53,350 nt of DNA from Candidatus Methylomirabilota bacterium. GTDB lineage: Bacteria; Methylomirabilota; Methylomirabilia; Rokubacteriales; CSP1-6. The stretch is from positions 1 to 53,350 of the forward strand of contig DASTFB010000001.1 in assembly GCA_035709005.1 (NCBI GenBank). Reading direction: 5' to 3'. Below, piece after piece: positions 8,983 to 24,284 of this stretch (position 1 is the stretch's first letter; every line of letters starts with the position of its first letter). The notes under the pieces were generated by a model that was given only the letters and a program-made list of their open reading frames with translations, was not told the origin of the DNA and made no database searches. The position numbers were made by a program, and so were the translations under genes.

Positions 8983-9821
8983 AGATCGCCGTCGTCGTCC
9001 CGCTGCTCGTCGGCGGGTTCCTCCTCGCCAGCCTGCTCGCCTTCTGGCTGGCGGTGCGGCCGCCCCGACTCACCATCGACCTGCGCCCGGCCGATGTCGG
9101 CCTGGCCGTAGAGGACGTGTCGATCCGCGCGGCCGACGGGGTGCGCCTCTCAGCCTGGCTCGCGGCGCGTCCCGGGCGGCCGGCCGTGGTGCTCCTGCAC
9201 GGCTATCCGGCCGACAAGCGAGATCTGCTGCCGCTGGCCGCCGTGTTCCACCGGCACTTCACCGTGCTCCTGGTCGATCTACGCTCCTTCGGCCAGAGTG
9301 AGGGCCGGGTCACCACGCTCGGGCATCGTGAGCGCGACGACCTGAAGCGGGCCCTCGACGTGCTCCAGCAGCGCGGGCTCGGCCCCGTGGGAGTGTTCGG
9401 CTTCTCACTCGGCGGGGCGGTGGCGCTGCTGACCGCCGCCGAAGACCAGCGCATCCGCGCGGTCGCGGCCTATGCCCCGTTTGCCGACTTGCGGGATCTG
9501 GGCCGCGATCTCTACCGCGGCCTGTGGCTCCTGCGCGAGCCGCTGGTGGGCCTCATGCGCCTGTGGTCCCGGCTGCTCCTGGGCGCCGACATCACGCGCC
9601 CGTCCCCGGAACAGGCGGCCCGGCGACTGAGCGTGCCCGTGATGCTCGTCCACAGCCGGGCGGACGAGCAGATTCCCTTTCACCACGCCGAGCGCCTGGT
9701 CCGGGCGCTCGCCGACAACTCCCAGGCCCGGTTCGTCTTCAGCGACGACGGCTATCACGGCGCGCTGGGCTCGGGCCTGCAAGAGCGTCTCGCCCAGTTC
9801 TTCCTGGGCTCCTTGCACTAG
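8979..9821 (+). CDS. membrane-anchored alpha/beta-hydrolase (serine hydrolase)
   Basis: About 280 aa. One N-terminal hydrophobic helix (residues 4-26) acts as anchor or signal, followed by an alpha/beta-hydrolase domain: oxyanion strand HGYPADKRD, nucleophile elbow G-F-S-L-G-G, acid in HSRADEQIP and catalytic His in DGYHGA. All triad residues are present. The frame overlaps the TPR stop; the first in-frame codon there is CTG 8979, giving CTGA coupling, and no ATG or GTG keeps the whole anchor, so the exact start is uncertain. Esterase, lipase or peptidase activity is possible; substrate unknown. Confidence 0.75.
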   Translation: MKIAVVVPLLVGGFLLASLLAFWLAVRPPRLTIDLRPADVGLAVEDVSIRAADGVRLSAWLAARPGRPAVVLLHGYPADKRDLLPLAAVFHRHFTVLLVDLRSFGQSEGRVTTLGHRERDDLKRALDVLQQRGLGPVGVFGFSLGGAVALLTAAEDQRIRAVAAYAPFADLRDLGRDLYRGLWLLREPLVGLMRLWSRLLLGADITRPSPEQAARRLSVPVMLVHSRADEQIPFHHAERLVRALADNSQARFVFSDDGYHGALGSGLQERLAQFFLGSLH

Positions 9822-9961
9822 ACGATCCCGGCTGTTTGCGGGTGGTCAATTCTTGACGCTTCCCCTGTCACGGTGACACCTGCACCAGGTCGACGGCGCC
9901 AGGTCGCCACCGCAACTCGCCGATTCTCCGGGTGTTTGTCTTCGCGGCGGCGGCGGTGCGT

Positions 9962-9978
9962 GTGGCACAACGGTTGCG
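9962..9978 (+). promoter_or_regulatory. sigma-54 promoter (-24/-12), consensus match
   Basis: TGGCAC at 9963-9968, five bases, then TTGC at 9974-9977: an exact match to the sigma-54 core TGGCAC-N5-TTGC, with GG and GC exactly 10 nt apart. The predicted start is about 9989, some 50 nt before ATG 10042. It would need an AAA+ activator such as the one encoded at 22122. Confidence 0.7.
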
Positions 9979-10041
9979 TGGGCAACGCGCGGCGGACAGC
10001 GCGCACAACCGGGGCTGGTCTCGCACGTGGTCGGAGGTGGC

Positions 10042-11043
10042 ATGACGCCGGAATTCAGGTCGCTGAAGATCGAGGACATCAAGGAGCTGCAGGAGCTGGT
10101 CGTCGATTCGGTCGCCTCCATCGAGCCGGGGCTGCGGCTGCTCGACAAGCAGGCCACCCTGGGGGGCAGCACCATCGACCTCGTCACGGTCGATGCCGAG
10201 GAGGTCCTGACCCTGATCGTCGTGGGCTTCGAAGCCGACGACGAGATGATGCTGAGGGCGCTGGAGGCCTATTCCTGGTGCCTGGAGTCCCCCGAGGAGC
10301 TCAGCCAGCTCTACCCCGACGAGCACTGGTCCACGCAGTCGCCGCGGGTCGTCTTCATCACCGAGCGCATCCCGCTGGCCTTTCTGCGCAAGATCCGCCA
10401 CCTCCGCTTCCACCGTGTCGACTGTCTCGAGTTTCGCTTCGGCCTGCAGTTCTCCCACGTGGGGGAGCTGCGGGAGGCCGAGGCGGTGGTCGAGCCACCA
10501 CCGCCACCGCCGCCCCCGGCCGTCGCCCCGGTCGCGCCGCCGCCGGTCGTCGCCCAACCCGTCGCGCCTGCCCCCGCGGCGCCCGCTCCGGCTGCCGGCC
10601 GGTCGCAAGCGCGCGCCGAGGCGCCGTCGCGGGCTGCTCATCGGCCGCGCGCCGAGGCGTCACGCCGGGAGGAGCCGGCGCCCCCGCCCCCGCCGCCGCT
10701 GCCGGCGGTGCCCATCGAGGAGTCGCGGGGCGCGGCCTCGCGTGCCAGCGTGGTGAGCGAGGAGATGGTGCGCACGGTACGCGAGTACCTGCAGCGCGAG
10801 TTCCCCACCGCCGTCATCTACGACTTCTACGCCCACGACCGGGGCGTGCAGATGTTCCACCTGCAAGACAGTCATGGGGCGGTGATCCACTCCGCCATCG
10901 TCACCGAGGAGGTGCTCGGCGAGGGCGGTGAGGCCCAGCTGCAAAACCTGCTCGAGAAGCACAAGCTGGCCCGGGTGCTCCGGCAGGCCGGCTCGGCCGC
11001 GGTCTCGGTGGCGAAGACCGGGCTGAAGATCGAGCGACGGTGA
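10042..11043 (+). CDS. protein of unknown function with nuclease-like N-terminal fold, coupled to MlaC
   Basis: 333 aa. Residues 1-135 resemble the PD-(D/E)XK layout of NucS/DUF91-type nucleases: ExGL at 28-31 and ID at 45-46, then a beta strand, then an LRALEAY-W helix. The E-x-K catalytic pair is absent (IVVGFE at 59-64), so cleavage is unlikely. Residues 150-230 are a Pro/Ala/Arg-rich linker, and 233-333 a separate small alpha/beta domain I do not recognise. ATG 10042 has GGAGG 4 nt upstream; GTG 10027 is less likely. It is preceded by a sigma-54 promoter, and its stop overlaps the mlaC start, so the two are co-expressed. Confidence 0.6.
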   Translation: MTPEFRSLKIEDIKELQELVVDSVASIEPGLRLLDKQATLGGSTIDLVTVDAEEVLTLIVVGFEADDEMMLRALEAYSWCLESPEELSQLYPDEHWSTQSPRVVFITERIPLAFLRKIRHLRFHRVDCLEFRFGLQFSHVGELREAEAVVEPPPPPPPPAVAPVAPPPVVAQPVAPAPAAPAPAAGRSQARAEAPSRAAHRPRAEASRREEPAPPPPPPLPAVPIEESRGAASRASVVSEEMVRTVREYLQREFPTAVIYDFYAHDRGVQMFHLQDSHGAVIHSAIVTEEVLGEGGEAQLQNLLEKHKLARVLRQAGSAAVSVAKTGLKIERR

Positions 11044-11669
11044 GCGTCGGACGGGGGATCGGGCGGGTGTGGCTGACGGCGGCGGGGCTGCTGGTGGCTA
11101 CGGCCACGGCCGCGCTGGCCGGGTCGCCCACCGAGCAGGTGCGGCAGTACACCGACCACGTGCAGCGCATCCTCCACGACACCTCGCTGCCGCAAGCGGA
11201 CAAGCGCGCCGCCGTCAGCAAGATCGCGCACGAGGTGTTCGACCTGACCGAGACGGCCAGGCGGGCGCTGGGCCGTCACTGGCAGGGCCGAACGCCGGCC
11301 CAGCAGGCGGAGTTCGTCCAGCTCTTCGCCGACCTGTTGGAGCGGACGTACGTGGCCAAGGTCGACTACTACGGCGGCGAGCAGGTGCACTTCACGGCAG
11401 AGACGGTCGACGGGGACTACGCGGTCGTCCGCGGCAAGGTCGTCACCCGGCAGCGCACGGAGATTCCCGTCGAGGCCCGCCTGCACCAGCGCGATGGCCG
11501 CTGGCTCATTTACGACGTCATCATCGAGAGTGTCAGCCTGGTGGGGAACTATCGCTCGCAATTCGACCGGATCATCCGGTCGGGCTCGTACGAGGAGCTG
11601 GTACGGCGGTTGAAAACCCGGCGTGACGAATTCGTGCCCGTCAAGGAGCGTCGGCCGACCCGCTCCTGA
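11040..11669 (+). CDS. MlaC/Ttg2D-family periplasmic phospholipid-binding protein
   Basis: 209 aa. A Sec signal peptide (about 1-27, ALAG) is followed by the MlaC fold: family segments VFDLTETARRALGRHW, FADLLERTYVAKVDYY and GRWLIYDVIIESVSLVGNYRSQF. MlaC shuttles phospholipids between the outer and inner membranes. MlaD/E/F are not adjacent, which is unusual; the partner instead is the upstream unknown protein, whose TGA overlaps this GTG start. Control by sigma-54 is inferred from the promoter at 9962. Confidence 0.85.
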   Translation: MSVGRGIGRVWLTAAGLLVATATAALAGSPTEQVRQYTDHVQRILHDTSLPQADKRAAVSKIAHEVFDLTETARRALGRHWQGRTPAQQAEFVQLFADLLERTYVAKVDYYGGEQVHFTAETVDGDYAVVRGKVVTRQRTEIPVEARLHQRDGRWLIYDVIIESVSLVGNYRSQFDRIIRSGSYEELVRRLKTRRDEFVPVKERRPTRS

Positions 11670-11671
11670 GC

Positions 11672-11700
11672 TTGCAGCCCCCGGCCCTCCTCCTTATAAT
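11672..11700 (+). promoter_or_regulatory. sigma-70-type promoter for acetyl-CoA synthetase
   Basis: TTGCAG at 11672-11677, a 17-bp spacer and a perfect TATAAT at 11695-11700. The predicted start is about 11707, giving a leader of about 53 nt before ATG 11760. Confidence 0.7.
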
Positions 11701-11759
11701 CGGCGCGACGACCGGGCGCCGATCCACCCAGAAATTCCTTAGCCAGGCGAGGTCAGCCC

Positions 11760-13721
<1,962 letters not shown>

Positions 13722-14127: not shown

Positions 14128-15408
14128 ATGGCTGAAGACATCCGGGCCACGGTGAAAGACAAGTATGGTAAGGCCGCGCTCCGCGTGAGCCAGAGCGCGG
14201 AGGGTTGTTGCAGCAGCGTCGGGTCGGCCTGCGATCCCATCACCGCCGATCTCTACCAGGCCGACGAGACCGCCGGGCTGCCTGCGGAAGCCGTGCAGGC
14301 CTCCCTGGGCTGTGGCAATCCGACCGCGCTGGCCCACCTGGCGGCCGGCGAAACCGTGCTCGACCTGGGCTCGGGCGGTGGCATCGACGTGCTGCTGTCC
14401 GCCCGGCGGGTGGGCTCGACGGGCAAAGCCTACGGCCTCGACATGACCGACGAGATGCTCGCTTTGGCCCGGGACAACGCCGCCCGGGCCGGCGTCGACA
14501 ACGTGGAGTTCCTCAAGGGTCACATCGAGGAGATCCCGCTGCCCGACGGCGCCGTCGACGTGGTCATCTCCAACTGCGTGATCAACCTCTCACCCGACAA
14601 GGACCGCGTCCTGGCCGAGGCGTTCCGGGTCCTCAAGCCGGGCGGGCGCTTCGCCGTGTCCGACGTGGTGGTGCGCGGCCCGGTGCCCGAGGAGATCCGC
14701 CGCAGCGTGGAGCTGTGGATCGGGTGCATCGCCGGCGCCCTGGACGAGGGCGAGTATCGCGCCAAGCTGGCCCGCGCGGGCTTCGTGGACGTCGACGTGG
14801 AGCCCACCCGGATCTACCGCGCGTCGGACGCGGGCGAGGCCTTGGCGGCGGCCGGCCTCGACGCCGATGCGATCGCGCCGCTGGTGGACGGCCGCTTCAT
14901 GAGCGCCTTCGTCCGCGCCCGCAAGCCCGCGACCGCTGGAGACGCGGTGCCCATCACGCCCCGGATACACGTGCACATGCACGTGTCGGACCTGGCCAAG
15001 AGTCGGGCATTCTACGAGCGCTTCTTCGGGACCGCCCCGGTCAAGGTCAAGCCGGGCTACGTCAAGTTCCTGCCCCCCTGGGGGCCGCTCAACCTGGCCA
15101 TGTCCCAGGGAGCGCGCGCCGAGGGCGGGCACGTCGACCACATGGGTGTGCAGCTCGGCTCCCGCGACGCCGTCGTCCGCGAGCTGGCGCGCGTCAAGGC
15201 CGCCGGGCTGCCGGTGCGCGAGGAGCACGGCGTCGATTGCTGCCACGCCAACCAGGACAAGTTCTGGGTGGAGGACCCCGACGGCGTGCAGTGGGAGGTC
15301 TACGTCCTCAATCACGACCTGGAGGACGAATCCCCCGCCGTCGGCTGCCGGCCGCAGGGGCTCAGGGTGGTGCCGTCGGGCTCGTGCTGCGGCCCCGCGA
15401 CGCCGTGA
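14128..15408 (+). CDS. ArsM-ArsI fusion: As(III) methyltransferase with C-As lyase domain
   Basis: 426 aa. Residues 1-265 are an ArsM SAM-dependent arsenite methyltransferase: VKDKYGKAA start, cysteines C27/C28, C62 (SLGCGNP), C150 (SNCVINL) and C200 (WIGCIAG), SAM loop DLGSGGG (79-85). Residues 278-400 are an ArsI-type extradiol-fold (VOC) domain that in other bacteria breaks the C-As bond of trivalent methylarsenicals: metal ligands H281, H338, E390 and substrate pair C371-C372 in DCCHANQDKFW. A further CC (420-421) ends the protein. Both active sites look complete and the frame is unbroken. Opposite activities in one chain are odd (see findings). 15 nt after arsR with AGGAGG, so same operon. 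Confidence 0.88.
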   Translation: MAEDIRATVKDKYGKAALRVSQSAEGCCSSVGSACDPITADLYQADETAGLPAEAVQASLGCGNPTALAHLAAGETVLDLGSGGGIDVLLSARRVGSTGKAYGLDMTDEMLALARDNAARAGVDNVEFLKGHIEEIPLPDGAVDVVISNCVINLSPDKDRVLAEAFRVLKPGGRFAVSDVVVRGPVPEEIRRSVELWIGCIAGALDEGEYRAKLARAGFVDVDVEPTRIYRASDAGEALAAAGLDADAIAPLVDGRFMSAFVRARKPATAGDAVPITPRIHVHMHVSDLAKSRAFYERFFGTAPVKVKPGYVKFLPPWGPLNLAMSQGARAEGGHVDHMGVQLGSRDAVVRELARVKAAGLPVREEHGVDCCHANQDKFWVEDPDGVQWEVYVLNHDLEDESPAVGCRPQGLRVVPSGSCCGPATP

Positions 15409-20266: not shown

Positions 20267-21769
20267 GTGGCGGCGCCCCTTCCGCGCTCGGCCCTGCTCG
20301 CGCTGGCGGCCGTCGTCGTTCCCGCCGCGATCGTCGCCGGGCTGGGCTATCTCTCGCTTCGCCAGTGGCAGACCTCGGCCGAGCTCCTGTTCCGCGAGCA
20401 GGCCCGGGACATGGCCTCCATGGCCGTCGACAAGATCGAGATGGTCGTCCGGCAGGCCGATGACGAGATTCTCTCCCGTGTGGAGCACGCGCTGGGAGCC
20501 CCCGACCGCCGCCAGGCGCTCGATCGGCTCCGGGCCGAGACCCCGCTGCTCCAGAGCCTCGTGCTCCTCGACCGCGCCGGCCGCGCGCTCTACCCCTCGG
20601 GGCCCGGCGAGGACGAGGCGCTGGCGCGCGCGGTGCCGGCGGCGGTCGTTCAGGGGCTGTGGGAGCGCGGCGGCCGCCGGCACTTCGTGACCGACGAGCA
20701 GCCGGGGCTCGCCGCGATCCTCCGCGGCCCCGCGGGCGCGCCAGTGCTGGCCGCCTTCACCCGACGCCCGGATGCGTTGCATGCTGTCTTCGACAGCACC
20801 ATCAAGCCGCTGGAGGCGCTGACGATCTGCGCCATCGTGGACGAGCGAGGCCGGACGATCTACAGCAAGGAGCCGCTCGAGCACGCCGAGCTCATCGCCG
20901 CCGTCCCCTTCCGCGAGGGCTTCCCTCGCTGGCGCATCGCCCTCTACCAGCCCGAGGGGCCCTCGCCCCGCCAGGCCGTGCAGCGCCAGGTGGCCATCTT
21001 CACCGCGGCTTTCGGCGTCCTGTTCCTGGTCGTGGTGGCCGGCCTGGTGGCCACCTACCGGCTGGTGCGGCGGGAGACGGAGATGGCGCGCCTCAAGGCC
21101 GACTTCGTGGCCAACGTCTCTCACGATCTCAAGACGCCGCTCTCGGTGATCCGGATGTTCGGCGAGACCCTGGAAATGGGCCGCCTGCCCGACGAGGCGG
21201 CGCGCCAGGAGTACTACCATGTGATCACCCGAGAGACCGAGCGGCTCACGCGCCTGATCGACAACGTCCTGGACTTCTCGCGGATCGAGAGCGGCCGGCG
21301 CACCTATGTGCCCGTGCCCACCGCCGTGGAGCCCCTCGTGCGGGAGAGCGTGGAGGGCTTCAGCGTGCCCCTGGCCCAGCAGGGGTTCAAGGTCGAAGTG
21401 CAGGTGGCGCCGGACCTCCCCGAGGTGCCTCTGGACGCCGACGCCGTCGCGCAGGCGCTGGCCAATCTGGTCGACAATGCCATCAAGTACTCGGCGGAGC
21501 GGAAATCGCTACGCGTCGAGGCCCGGGCGGCTGAGGGACATCTGGTGCTGGAGGTGGCCGACGAGGGGATCGGCATCCCGCGCGAGGAGCAGTCGCGGAT
21601 CTTCGACAAGTTCTACCGGGTGGGCCGCAGCGAGACGCAGGGCCGGCGCGGCAGCGGCGTGGGGCTGGCCCTGGTCCGGCACGTCGCCGAAGCCCATGGC
21701 GGGCGCGTGACGGTGGAAAGCCGCCCCGGCGAGGGTAGCCGGTTCACCCTGTGGTTCCCGCTCGCCTGA
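20267..21769 (+). CDS. membrane sensor histidine kinase
   Basis: 500 aa. Two membrane spans (about 8-30 and 243-264) flank a periplasmic sensor domain of about 210 residues that I do not recognise. The kinase core is complete: H-box H286 in VSHDLKTPL, N-box N404 (LVDNAIKYS), G1 DEGIGIP (432-438), F-box FDKFYR, G2 GSGVGLALV (462-470). No HAMP domain is obvious. GTG 20267 lies 1 nt after the selenoprotein stop, so it may share that transcript and sense periplasmic redox state. No response regulator is adjacent; the downstream activator lacks a receiver domain. Confidence 0.88.
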   Translation: MAAPLPRSALLALAAVVVPAAIVAGLGYLSLRQWQTSAELLFREQARDMASMAVDKIEMVVRQADDEILSRVEHALGAPDRRQALDRLRAETPLLQSLVLLDRAGRALYPSGPGEDEALARAVPAAVVQGLWERGGRRHFVTDEQPGLAAILRGPAGAPVLAAFTRRPDALHAVFDSTIKPLEALTICAIVDERGRTIYSKEPLEHAELIAAVPFREGFPRWRIALYQPEGPSPRQAVQRQVAIFTAAFGVLFLVVVAGLVATYRLVRRETEMARLKADFVANVSHDLKTPLSVIRMFGETLEMGRLPDEAARQEYYHVITRETERLTRLIDNVLDFSRIESGRRTYVPVPTAVEPLVRESVEGFSVPLAQQGFKVEVQVAPDLPEVPLDADAVAQALANLVDNAIKYSAERKSLRVEARAAEGHLVLEVADEGIGIPREEQSRIFDKFYRVGRSETQGRRGSGVGLALVRHVAEAHGGRVTVESRPGEGSRFTLWFPLA

Positions 21770-22121
21770 CGCGGTGAGGCCACGGCCGGCGAATCTCTGT
21801 TCCGGGTCCATGCGTCTAAGAGCGTGATGAATACCAAGGCCGTCTCTGTCCTGGCTGACTCGATCCTGTACCTCCTGTCCCTGCTGCGGGCGCGGTCGCG
21901 CAAGATCGACCGCTACATCGACTACTTCGGCGAGCGTCGAGCCGCCGGCCCGCCCGGCCGTCACGACTGGGTGCGGTCCCGCGTCTCGCCCGGACGGTCG
22001 GCCTCACCGGCGGCGTGATCGGCACCCGGCCCTCAGGGACGGCTGCCCATTCGCCGGCCGCGGACGATACCGCCGGCCGGCCGCCGGCTGACCGCCACAC
22101 CGCCGGCGTACAATAGGAGCG
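21770..22121 (+). other. 352-bp gap between kinase and sigma-54 activator
   Basis: Holds one possible small ORF (21824-22018), then GC-rich DNA with a GCCGGCCGGCCGCCGGC palindrome near 22075, and a TACAAT hexamer at 22109-22114. Nothing else recognisable. Confidence 0.5.
21824..22018 (+). CDS. possible small hydrophobic protein
   Basis: 64 codons; residues 1-22 are hydrophobic (VSVLADSILYLLSLLRA) followed by a basic stretch and a low-complexity tail. No clear ribosome binding site. The first 40 residues look protein-like, but no family is recognised and chance occurrence is possible. Confidence 0.3.
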   Translation: MMNTKAVSVLADSILYLLSLLRARSRKIDRYIDYFGERRAAGPPGRHDWVRSRVSPGRSASPAA

Positions 22122-24284
22122 GTGCCGACGCCGCTACCCGCCCAGCCTGGCCACCACGCCGGGCCCGTCCCGGACGCCGAGCGCTACCGCGCGCTGCTCG
22201 AGATCAACAACGCGATCATCTCCAACCTGACCCGGGACGCGCTCTTCAACGCCGTCGCTCAGGCGCTCCGGGACGTCGTGCCGTTCGACCGCACCGCGAT
22301 CTTCCTCCACGATCCCCGGCGGAACGTCCTGCGGTTGTTCGTTCTCGAATCGTCCCTGTCCTCGAGCTACTTCGTGGTGGGCCTGGAGATGGGCGCCGGA
22401 GAAACCCACGTGGGCCGAGCCTTTCAGGAGCAGCGGCCGCTGCTCCGGCGCGACCTCGAGAAGGAACGCCAGTACGCGATGGAGGAGCACGCGCTGGCCG
22501 ACGGCGTGCGCTCCTACGTCATCGTCCCCCTCGTGGCGCGGGGGCGCAGCCTGGGCGTCCTGGCCGTGGCCAGCACGCGGCTCAACCAGTACTCCGAGGC
22601 CGACGTGGAGTTCCTTCAGGAAGTCGCCAATCAGATCGCCCTGGCCGTCGCCAACATGAAAGCCTACGAGGACATCGCCGAGCTCAGTCACGCCATGCAG
22701 CAGGAAGTGGCCCGACGGACCCAGGCCGAAGAGGTGCTCCGGGCGATCGTCGAAGGGACGGCGCCGGTGACGGGAAGCGATTTCTTCTACTCTCTCGTAC
22801 GTCACCTCGCGCTTGCCCTGGGCGTCCGCTACGCATTCATCACCGAGTGCCGGGAGGACCAGCAAAGCCGGGTGCGGACGCTGGCCTTCTGGAAGGGAGA
22901 CGGCTTCGGCGAGAACTTCGAGTATGACGTCGCCATGACGCCCTGTCTGAGCGTCGTCGAGGGGACCGCGCGCTACTACTGCGCGGAGCTGCAACGCCTG
23001 TTTCCCGACGACACGATCCTGGTCGAGCTGGAGGCCGAGAGCTTCCTGGGCATTCCCATGACGGCGGCGTCGGGTCAGGTGATCGGCCACCTGGCCGTCA
23101 TGGACGACAAACCGATGGACGATCCGCCCGGCGGCCTGTCGGTGCTGAAGGTCTTCGCTTCCCGGGCCGCCGCCGAGCTCGAGCGCGTCAAGGCGGAGCG
23201 GTCACTCAAGACCGCCCTGGCCGAGGTGGAGACGCTGAGGAATCGGCTCCACGCCGAGAATGTCTATCTTCAAGAAGAGATCCGGGGGGAGCACAATTTC
23301 GTCGAGATGGTCGGGTCGAGCCCGGCCCTGCTCGGGGTCCTCCGCAAGATCGAGCAGGTGGCCCGCACCGACTCCACGGTGCTGATCTCCGGGGAGACAG
23401 GCACTGGCAAAGAGCTCGTGGCCCGGGCCGTCCACGATCGCAGTGCCCGTCGCCACCGCCCCCTCGTCAAGGTCGATTGCAGCGCCATCTCGGCTGGGCT
23501 GTTGGAGAGCGAGCTGTTCGGCCACGCCAAGGGAGCGTTCACCGGCGCCATCGAGCGGCGGGTCGGTCGCTTCGAGGTGGCCGACGGTGGGACGATCTTC
23601 CTCGACGAGATCGGGGAGCTGCCGCCGGAGGCGCAGGTCAAGCTGCTCCGCGTGCTGCAGGAGCAGGAGTTCGAGCCGGTGGGCAGTAACCGGACGGTGC
23701 GCGTCGAGGTTCGGGTCATCGCGGCCACCAACCGTAACCTGGACGAGGCCGTCCGGGCCGGACGCTTCCGGGCCGACCTCTTCTACCGGCTCAACGTCTT
23801 CCCCATCGAGCTACCGCCGCTCCGCGATCGCCGGTCTGACATCCCTCAGCTCGTGACGTTCTTCCTCGGCCGGTTCTCGGCGCGGTTCGGCAAGCGCGTC
23901 GAGACGGCGTCCGGCGACACCATGGAGCGCCTGCTCCGGTATTCGTGGCCGGGCAACATCCGCGAGCTCCAGAATGTCGTCGAGCGCGCGGTTATCCTGG
24001 CCCCGGGCCAAGTCCTCGAGCTCGACCCCGACCTGGCGCCGGTGTCCTCGCGGACGGCGGAGTCGCCGCCGGTCCGCTGGCCGAGCCCGGACCCGGCGAC
24101 GGCGGGCCCCCTGCCGTCGCTGGAGGAGGTGGAGCGCGAGCACATCCTCGCGGCGCTGAGCAAGACGGGCGGGGTCATCGAGGGCTCGAAGGGGGCCGCG
24201 CAGATCCTCAAGCTCCACCCGAATACGCTGAGGAGCCGCATGAAGAAGCTCGGACTCAAGCGTTCACGCCACGACCAGTCGTAG
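22122..24284 (+). CDS. sigma-54-dependent activator with two GAF domains (FhlA/NtrC type)
   Basis: 720 aa. GAF domains at about 30-180 and 205-355, coiled linker 358-388, AAA+ domain 395-635, Fis-type HTH about 675-715. Walker A GETGTGK (424-430), the sigma-54 contact loop GAFTGA (471-476) and Walker B IFLDE (492-496) are intact, so it should remodel sigma-54 holoenzyme. The N-terminal GAF pair implies small-ligand or redox sensing rather than phosphorylation. GTG 22122 has AGGAG only 2 nt upstream and TACAAT ending 7 nt upstream, so the mRNA may be leaderless. A sigma-54-like promoter for the next operon begins 130 nt after its stop. Confidence 0.92.

Follow-up and report, generated by a model that had tools for sequence, protein, structure and literature searches.

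We analysed a window of 53,350 nucleotides of DNA from a soil bacterium, Candidatus Methylomirabilota bacterium (positions 1–53,350 of contig DASTFB010000001.1, assembly GCA_035709005.1), in which a gene for a protein of 333 residues, here called P0001, is preceded by a sigma-54-type promoter and followed by a gene for MlaC. The features of the locus are as follows.

9866–9878, no strand assigned: candidate enhancer (UAS), a perfect palindrome TGTCA-CGG-TGACA, with the −24 element 97 bp downstream
9913–9925, forward strand: putative IHF-like element CAACTCGCCGATT, 7/9 to the consensus YAANNNNTTGATW
9963–9977, forward strand: predicted sigma-54 −24/−12 promoter TGGCACAACGGTTGC, from sequence and conservation; transcription start expected at about 9989
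10033–10039, forward strand: ribosome-binding site GGAGGTG, from sequence, preceding the ATG at 10042
10042–11043, forward strand: P0001 gene, 333 aa, class I of a pseudo-EndoMS family, from sequence and profile search
10042–10446, forward strand: P0001 N-terminal domain, residues 1–135, EndoMS/NucS-type fold without E-x-K, from model and profiles
10483–10737, forward strand: P0001 proline/alanine-rich linker, approximately residues 148–232, from translation
10732–11040, forward strand: P0001 C-terminal domain, residues 231–333, which defines class I, from domain searches and model
11040–11669, forward strand: orphan MlaC gene (PF05494), overlapping the P0001 gene by 4 bp; the pairing is lineage-specific

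The P0001 gene was assigned the ATG start at 10042, with GGAGGTG ahead of it, in preference to a GTG at 10027. At the other end of the gene, the P0001 stop and the GTG start of MlaC share the GTGA at 11040–11043. Translational coupling of the two genes had been claimed, and the reading frame downstream is indeed MlaC.

A profile search of GTDB contigs returned 46 loci of the P0001 family, all titled Candidatus Rokubacteria or Rokuibacteriota, to which the window and L057 (genome G005) were added to give 48. With the truncated L137 left out of the class counts, 47 loci are divided into class I (C-terminal domain present; 23 loci) and class II (C-terminal domain absent; 24 loci). In a tree of N-terminal domains a 98/95 branch separates class I from the rest, and the window groups with L093 and L057 at 100/98. 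Among 40 genomes (our own and its relatives) the N-terminal domain was detected in 18, often in several copies, and the C-terminal domain in 11; for the latter, G017 and G022 gave weak matches, and these fall outside family genes. Distant N-domain paralogues occur at L079–L084 and L085–L087, with a PEP-CTERM/XrtA-type ATPase in the neighbourhood of L084 (TIGR03015 at 229 bits, under the cut-off) and a ParA-like ATPase ahead of the paralogue gene in L085–L087. The plasmid collection that was searched contained no match. The literature search, judged by titles and the starts of abstracts, returned nothing on the P0001 family, and no papers were found on Rokubacteria with sigma-54.

P0001 had been described as nuclease-like but catalytically depleted, and the structure model agrees with this description. 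The model of the N-terminal domain (residues 1–147; pLDDT 84.5, pTM 0.82) is most similar to 2vld_A, the nuclease domain of NucS/EndoMS, with Z 13.7 and rmsd 2.1 over 107 aligned residues, followed by 5gke_A (Z 13.1, rmsd 5.8, 116 aligned) and 5gkj_B (Z 11.3, rmsd 4.4, 111 aligned); matches from other families have Z values of 9.4 or less. The sequence profile of the domain matches EndoMS with E 0.0036, and Pfam NucS_C is found in 26/46 family members (best 9e-4), the window member not being among them. In the alignment V60 and G62 take the places of the catalytic Glu and Lys, and in the E-x-K columns of 46 members Lys never occurs and Glu occurs once. Judged as a member of EndoMS/NucS, P0001 has the C-terminal NucS-type fold (by model), lacks the catalytic D...E-x-K, and begins directly with the nuclease-type domain, so the N-terminal DNA-binding domain that would precede it is absent.

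Could P0001 be an active nuclease in repair or defence with a migrated or otherwise unusual active site? Some PD-(D/E)XK enzymes have migrated active-site residues, and besides the EndoMS/NucS-type fold the family retains E28 in 45/46 members and, at position 46, an acidic residue (D or E) in all 46. The almost complete loss of the E-x-K residues in the family speaks against activity, as do the signalling genes that adjoin relatives and the failure to match any defence family (PADLOC best E 0.052), and we judge an active enzyme quite improbable. The net charge of residues 1–135 is −11 in the window protein, compared with a class I mean of about −2, and DNA binding is therefore not favoured for this N-terminal domain. 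By our own reading P0001 has no signal peptide. We propose that it is a cytosolic, non-cutting protein.

Whole P0001 gave no significant match in Pfam, NCBIfam or PADLOC, and a PDB sequence search with the whole protein mostly matched low-complexity stretches. The proline-rich linker that had been claimed is readily seen in the sequence. The C-terminal domain, which had been called unique, was modeled with pLDDT 87.2; its best Foldseek match has E 0.09 and its best VIA match Z 5.5 (rmsd 3.6, 93 aligned), and neither is a confident PDB match. These scores lie within the range for models without a clear match and are no proof of a new fold. Searched separately, neither of the two domains of P0001 matched a PHROG, and the C-terminal domain has no Pfam match either. 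It is not peculiar to this protein, however, being common to 23 Rokubacteria loci. PDB matches to PKA regulatory subunits (E 0.0027), which covered the linker and the start of the C-terminal domain, were discounted, as a search with the C-domain profile gave nothing similar.

The product of 11040–11669 is clearly MlaC (PF05494, E 6.2e-43, 146.9 bits with the cut-off at 26); with the HpnM model it scores 85.7 bits, under the cut-off of 160.1. From the gene pair, regulated lipid transport with an unknown partner had been suggested, which would make P0001 and MlaC a functional pair under sigma-54 control with P0001 as the cytosolic member. The 4-bp overlap is in keeping with such a pair, and so are the order P0001 then MlaC in the three genomes of the subclade to which the window belongs (at distances of 0, about 1.2 and about 14 kb) and the lack of ABC partner genes for MlaC in the window, where tblastn with MlaD/E/F of contig C104 at E 1e-3 found none; C104 of the same genome carries an MlaE-F-D-C operon. 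Comparison of neighbourhoods, which had been named as the check on the pair, nevertheless finds it not conserved: MlaC is present in 2/23 class I loci (the window and L093, from G012), all 23 with at least 4.6 kb of sequence downstream, and in 0/24 class II loci. MlaC also keeps its own neighbours without P0001. In G012 (region L204) P0001 is followed, after about 1.2 kb, by MlaC and then by a broken acs, ArsR, ArsM and MFS; in G005 (L201) about 14 kb separates MlaC-acs from the class I gene; and in G003 (L202) MlaC, ArsR and MFS form a group with no class I gene beside it and a class II gene about 13.6 kb away. By our own reading MlaC has a signal peptide, unlike P0001, and MlaC-type genes occur in all 26 genomes searched, in 1–9 copies each. 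A functional pair is thus improbable, and the neighbourhoods lend no support to regulated lipid transport as the role of P0001. Of the two outcomes that had been named as refuting the suggestion, the first, a pair that is not conserved, was observed; the second, use of a different promoter, was not.

The simplest reading of the gene orders is that MlaC belongs to an acs/ArsR cluster and that the DNA between MlaC and P0001 varies, with none in the window. MlaC beside the P0001 gene then looks like a chance neighbour, which in this genome is probably co-transcribed and may be read through from the sigma-54 promoter. The acs remnant behind MlaC in L204 (7002–7304) is an N-terminal part joined to other sequence. 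The window also encodes, at 14128–15408, an arsenite methyltransferase fused to an ArsI/CadI-type VOC domain and adjoining an ArsR-like gene; in L204 the halves of this fusion match in different frames.

A consensus sigma-54 core had been claimed ahead of P0001, and TGGCAC-N5-TTGC at 9963–9977 (+) does match it at 10/10 bases. It is the sole exact copy on both strands of the window (0.09 expected; at least one copy in 8/100 shuffles). The 4.59-Mb genome contains 22 exact matches of the core and 8 of the reversed pattern, so roughly a third of the 22 could be due to chance, and the match taken alone is suggestive, not proof. One might accordingly suppose that the −24/−12 match is accidental and that a sigma-70 promoter is used instead. 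The site is kept, however, as TGGCAY-N5-TTGC ahead of the gene in 22/23 class I loci (L131 is without it), while the 48 loci together (1.1 Mb over both strands) contain 41 copies of the strict pattern, 21 at class I promoters as then scored and about 20 elsewhere. A sigma-70-like or terminator-like site was not found in 9700–11800, which is a weak negative. A chance match is hardly credible against this conservation.

The genome encodes RpoN (PF04552, E 1.9e-60), and a scan with the sigma-54 activator domain PF00158 gave 36 matches, 30 of them at E <=1e-44. With GG at −24, GC at −12, rpoN and activators in the genome and a conserved upstream element, a sigma-54 promoter before the P0001 gene is supported, more strongly than was first claimed, since 22/23 class I loci keep the site and most of these have enhancer-like and IHF-like elements along with it. 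The predicted mRNA leader is odd: it is about 53 nt in the window and 4–15 nt in all 20 other scored class I loci, and the short predicted leaders count against the explanation that we consider best. Near-leaderless mRNAs are thus predicted from class I sigma-54 promoters, for example in L114, L118, L119, L133, L134 and L138.

A UAS, then an IHF site, then a −24/−12 promoter is the usual sigma-54 layout. The UAS consensus was first read from three class I loci and then counted in the remaining ones. TGTCA-N3-TGRC is present at 8/9 or better in 19/22 class I loci, and at 9/9 in 14; it is weaker in L115, L121 and L129. Shuffling predicts 0.17 loci, and none of 500 shuffles gave more than 3; the shuffles preserve base composition only and ignore kinship among the loci. 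In the 19 loci the UAS lies 74–97 bp upstream of the promoter, with positions clustering near −87 and −76 and the window at −97, in steps of about one helical turn. The full palindrome TGTCA-N3-TGACA has a single exact occurrence in the genome, at the P0001 promoter; this uniqueness is weak by itself because about one occurrence is expected from base composition by our own estimate. The literature searched contained no description of a palindrome TGTCA-N3-TGRCA. By eye a second UAS in tandem seemed to lie some 30 bp farther upstream, but it was discarded as weak (mean 5.76/10, 5.20 in shuffles).

The IHF consensus was sought after an AT-rich stretch had been noticed. Its best match starts at −39 to −41 in 19/22 class I loci, the exceptions being the window (−50, with 47 bp from the UAS start to the start of the match), L128 (−32) and L136 (−36). 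Scores over the 22 loci are 9/9 in six, 8/9 in four, 7/9 in eight, including the window, and 6/9 in four; the match in the window is therefore weak, and that in L121, L122, L129 and L136, at 6/9, is near the shuffled level.

Which activator might act at this promoter? The palindrome, with R in its second half, was found at one of 30 activator loci scanned in our own genome. This is the gene of an NtrC-type protein on contig C11 (G000:C11:22742-24094), with a receiver domain, an AAA+ domain carrying GAFSGA, and HTH_8; it is closest to the AtoC, NtrC and ZraR models, yet under every cut-off. Orthologues of the C11 activator were sought in 26 genomes. The palindrome stands 33–50 bp before the activator start in 13/13 same-family orthologues (12 at 10/10, one at 9/10), is absent before both orthologues outside the family (L221, L222), and was found before 0/15 other activators. 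The loop reads GAFSGA in 12/15 orthologues and GAFTGA in 3/15; in a study of Desulfovibrio vulgaris, GAFSGA and GAFTDA are among the variants expected to keep activity (PMC4641369). A regulator of the PrsR (PEP-CTERM) type was dropped, TIGR02915 being under cut-off for both activators. Within the window, at 20267–24284 and some 10 kb from the studied promoter, another sigma-54 activator (NifA/FhlA/NorR-like, under the cut-offs) is encoded behind a sensor kinase gene, and no motif was found linking that activator to 9963–9977.

From this footprint the C11 activator is the best candidate for the regulator of the P0001 promoter, and we infer the assignment with fair confidence. Against it, G005 and G008, drafts of 170 and 560 contigs, have class I genes with the UAS and no clear orthologue of the C11 activator (best matches 48%), and many genomes hold a C11-type activator without a class I gene. 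The two drafts would suit a different arrangement, in which another activator or a repressor binds the UAS and the C11 activator gene is merely a co-target; so would the fact that a TGnTAnAnT-like stretch follows closely on the palindrome of the activator gene, which puts the palindrome, by our own reading, in a position typical of repression. Set against such an arrangement, which we hold to be unlikely though worth bearing in mind, the palindrome accompanies the C11 activator in all 13 family genomes and no other activator tested, and autoregulation is common among NtrC-type activators. The C11 activator, as our preferred regulator, probably controls itself too, because its own palindrome stands just before its start codon. 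In our own genome, however, the palindrome lies between the activator gene and a divergent thioredoxin-like gene and could serve the latter, a further point against the assignment. A second candidate target in the same genome is L003 (G000:C17:11596-11610), an exact −24/−12 site that precedes a CheY-like response-regulator gene and has TGTCCCGATGACA 109 bp upstream.

The neighbours of the relatives give a further view of the family. By script and Pfam domains, divergent GAF-GGDEF genes start within 600 bp in 15/20 class I loci that have at least 1.6 kb available upstream, and L138 also has one by reading, with a called ORF that overlaps the start. GAF-GGDEF neighbours are absent from the window, L057, L093 and L131, and what lies upstream in the window subclade is a TPR gene and a hydrolase; the signalling link of the window gene thus rests on kinship.

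In class II an NtrC-type activator gene lies directly upstream on the same strand in 23/24 loci, and all 23 have GAFTDA. An HD-GYP response regulator follows within 300 bp in 19/23 loci with enough sequence; in three more it overlaps further, L117 is without it, and a CheY-like gene is also among the neighbours. The promoters read TGGTC, TGGTA or TGGCC, then N6, then TTGC, in 23/24 loci, a count that is descriptive only since the pattern TGG[CT][AC][CT]N5TTGC was widened after the sequences had been seen. The class II palindrome is TTGGC-N9-GCCAA (mean score 12.96, 8.44 in 200 shuffles); it differs from that of class I, and there are therefore two classes with two enhancers. The GAFTDA loop of all 23 class II activators together with the TGGTC-type −24 element (L094–L135) may be a case of loop/promoter co-variation. 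Most class II proteins end in a short motif like FPKDGLSRQWLEFLNQL, which by our own reading also occurs before the C-terminal domain in many class I proteins, not in that of the window; its conservation at the class II end suggests a docking peptide.

On balance we think it probable that 9866–11043 is a complete sigma-54 unit through which the C11 activator drives P0001, a non-cutting signalling adaptor. From sequence and models (the elements and their conservation, the fold, the lost E-x-K and the neighbourhoods) we infer activator binding, IHF action, transcription and an adaptor role, in the following way. The C11 NtrC-family activator would bind the palindrome TGTCA-N3-TGACA at 9866–9878, and an IHF-like bend would bring it to sigma-54 RNA polymerase at 9963–9977, so that a P0001 mRNA with a leader of about 53 nt would be made; the activator would also act on the palindrome before its own gene. 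The product, with its dead EndoMS/NucS-type domain, presumably disordered linker and class-specific C-terminal domain, would then act as an adaptor or scaffold in a two-component/cyclic-di-GMP circuit of Rokubacteria. Such a role is the most likely one for P0001 because relatives adjoin GAF-GGDEF genes in class I and activator, HD-GYP and CheY-like genes in class II; read from the neighbours of relatives, the adaptor function in this setting has about an even chance of being right.

A wider and more doubtful proposal is that Rokubacteria possess a hitherto undescribed sigma-54 signalling module built on the dead EndoMS-type domain, in two paralogous classes with an enhancer, promoter flavour and activator each: TGTCA-N3-TGRCA, TGGCAC and GAFSGA/GAFTGA in class I, and TTGGC-N9-GCCAA, a TGGTC-type −24 element and fixed GAFTDA in class II. 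Two-component input would be coupled to cyclic-di-GMP enzymes, and the dead nuclease might be a nucleotide- or nucleic-acid-sensing adaptor.

What began as a guess at a single promoter can now be tested as a circuit, in a phylum that has received little study, with a candidate activator, its palindrome, its own gene and a target, and the pseudo-EndoMS family is seen to be linked consistently with sigma-54 and cyclic-di-GMP genes. A guess at lipid transport from an operon, which might otherwise have spread into annotation, was corrected; a gene overlap in one genome need not mean partnership.

The arrangement resembles NtrC-type sigma-54 regulons, in which an enhancer palindrome, an IHF-like site and a −24/−12 element likewise stand in the usual order. 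The candidate activator has the receiver-AAA+-HTH_8 architecture of those regulons, and the GAFSGA variant is listed as activation-compatible in PMC4641369; the palindrome given there, yGTCA-N6-TGACr, belongs to another activator and differs in spacing from TGTCA-N3-TGRCA. Sigma-54 control is of a known kind, as are dead PD-(D/E)XK domains (PMC3162934, PMC1189080); no account of the two together in this family, with the activator identified from its footprint, was found in the literature searched. MlaC and HpnM are periplasmic lipid carriers, and the product of 11040–11669 is one; it is an orphan outside the conserved unit, whereas C104 holds the MlaE-F-D-C operon. With the C-terminal nuclease domain of EndoMS/NucS (PF01939) P0001 shares the fold and the IEPG and D motifs. 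Relative to the NucS domain layout, as given in PMC5290159, it is without the N-terminal DNA-binding domain, has lost E-x-K, and adds a proline-rich linker and another C-terminal domain. Degenerate PD-(D/E)XK domains are presumed to bind nucleic acid without cutting, according to PMC1189080; P0001 is like them in having a nuclease fold without an active site, and differs in its acidic domain, its predicted sigma-54 control and the cyclic-di-GMP neighbours of its relatives.
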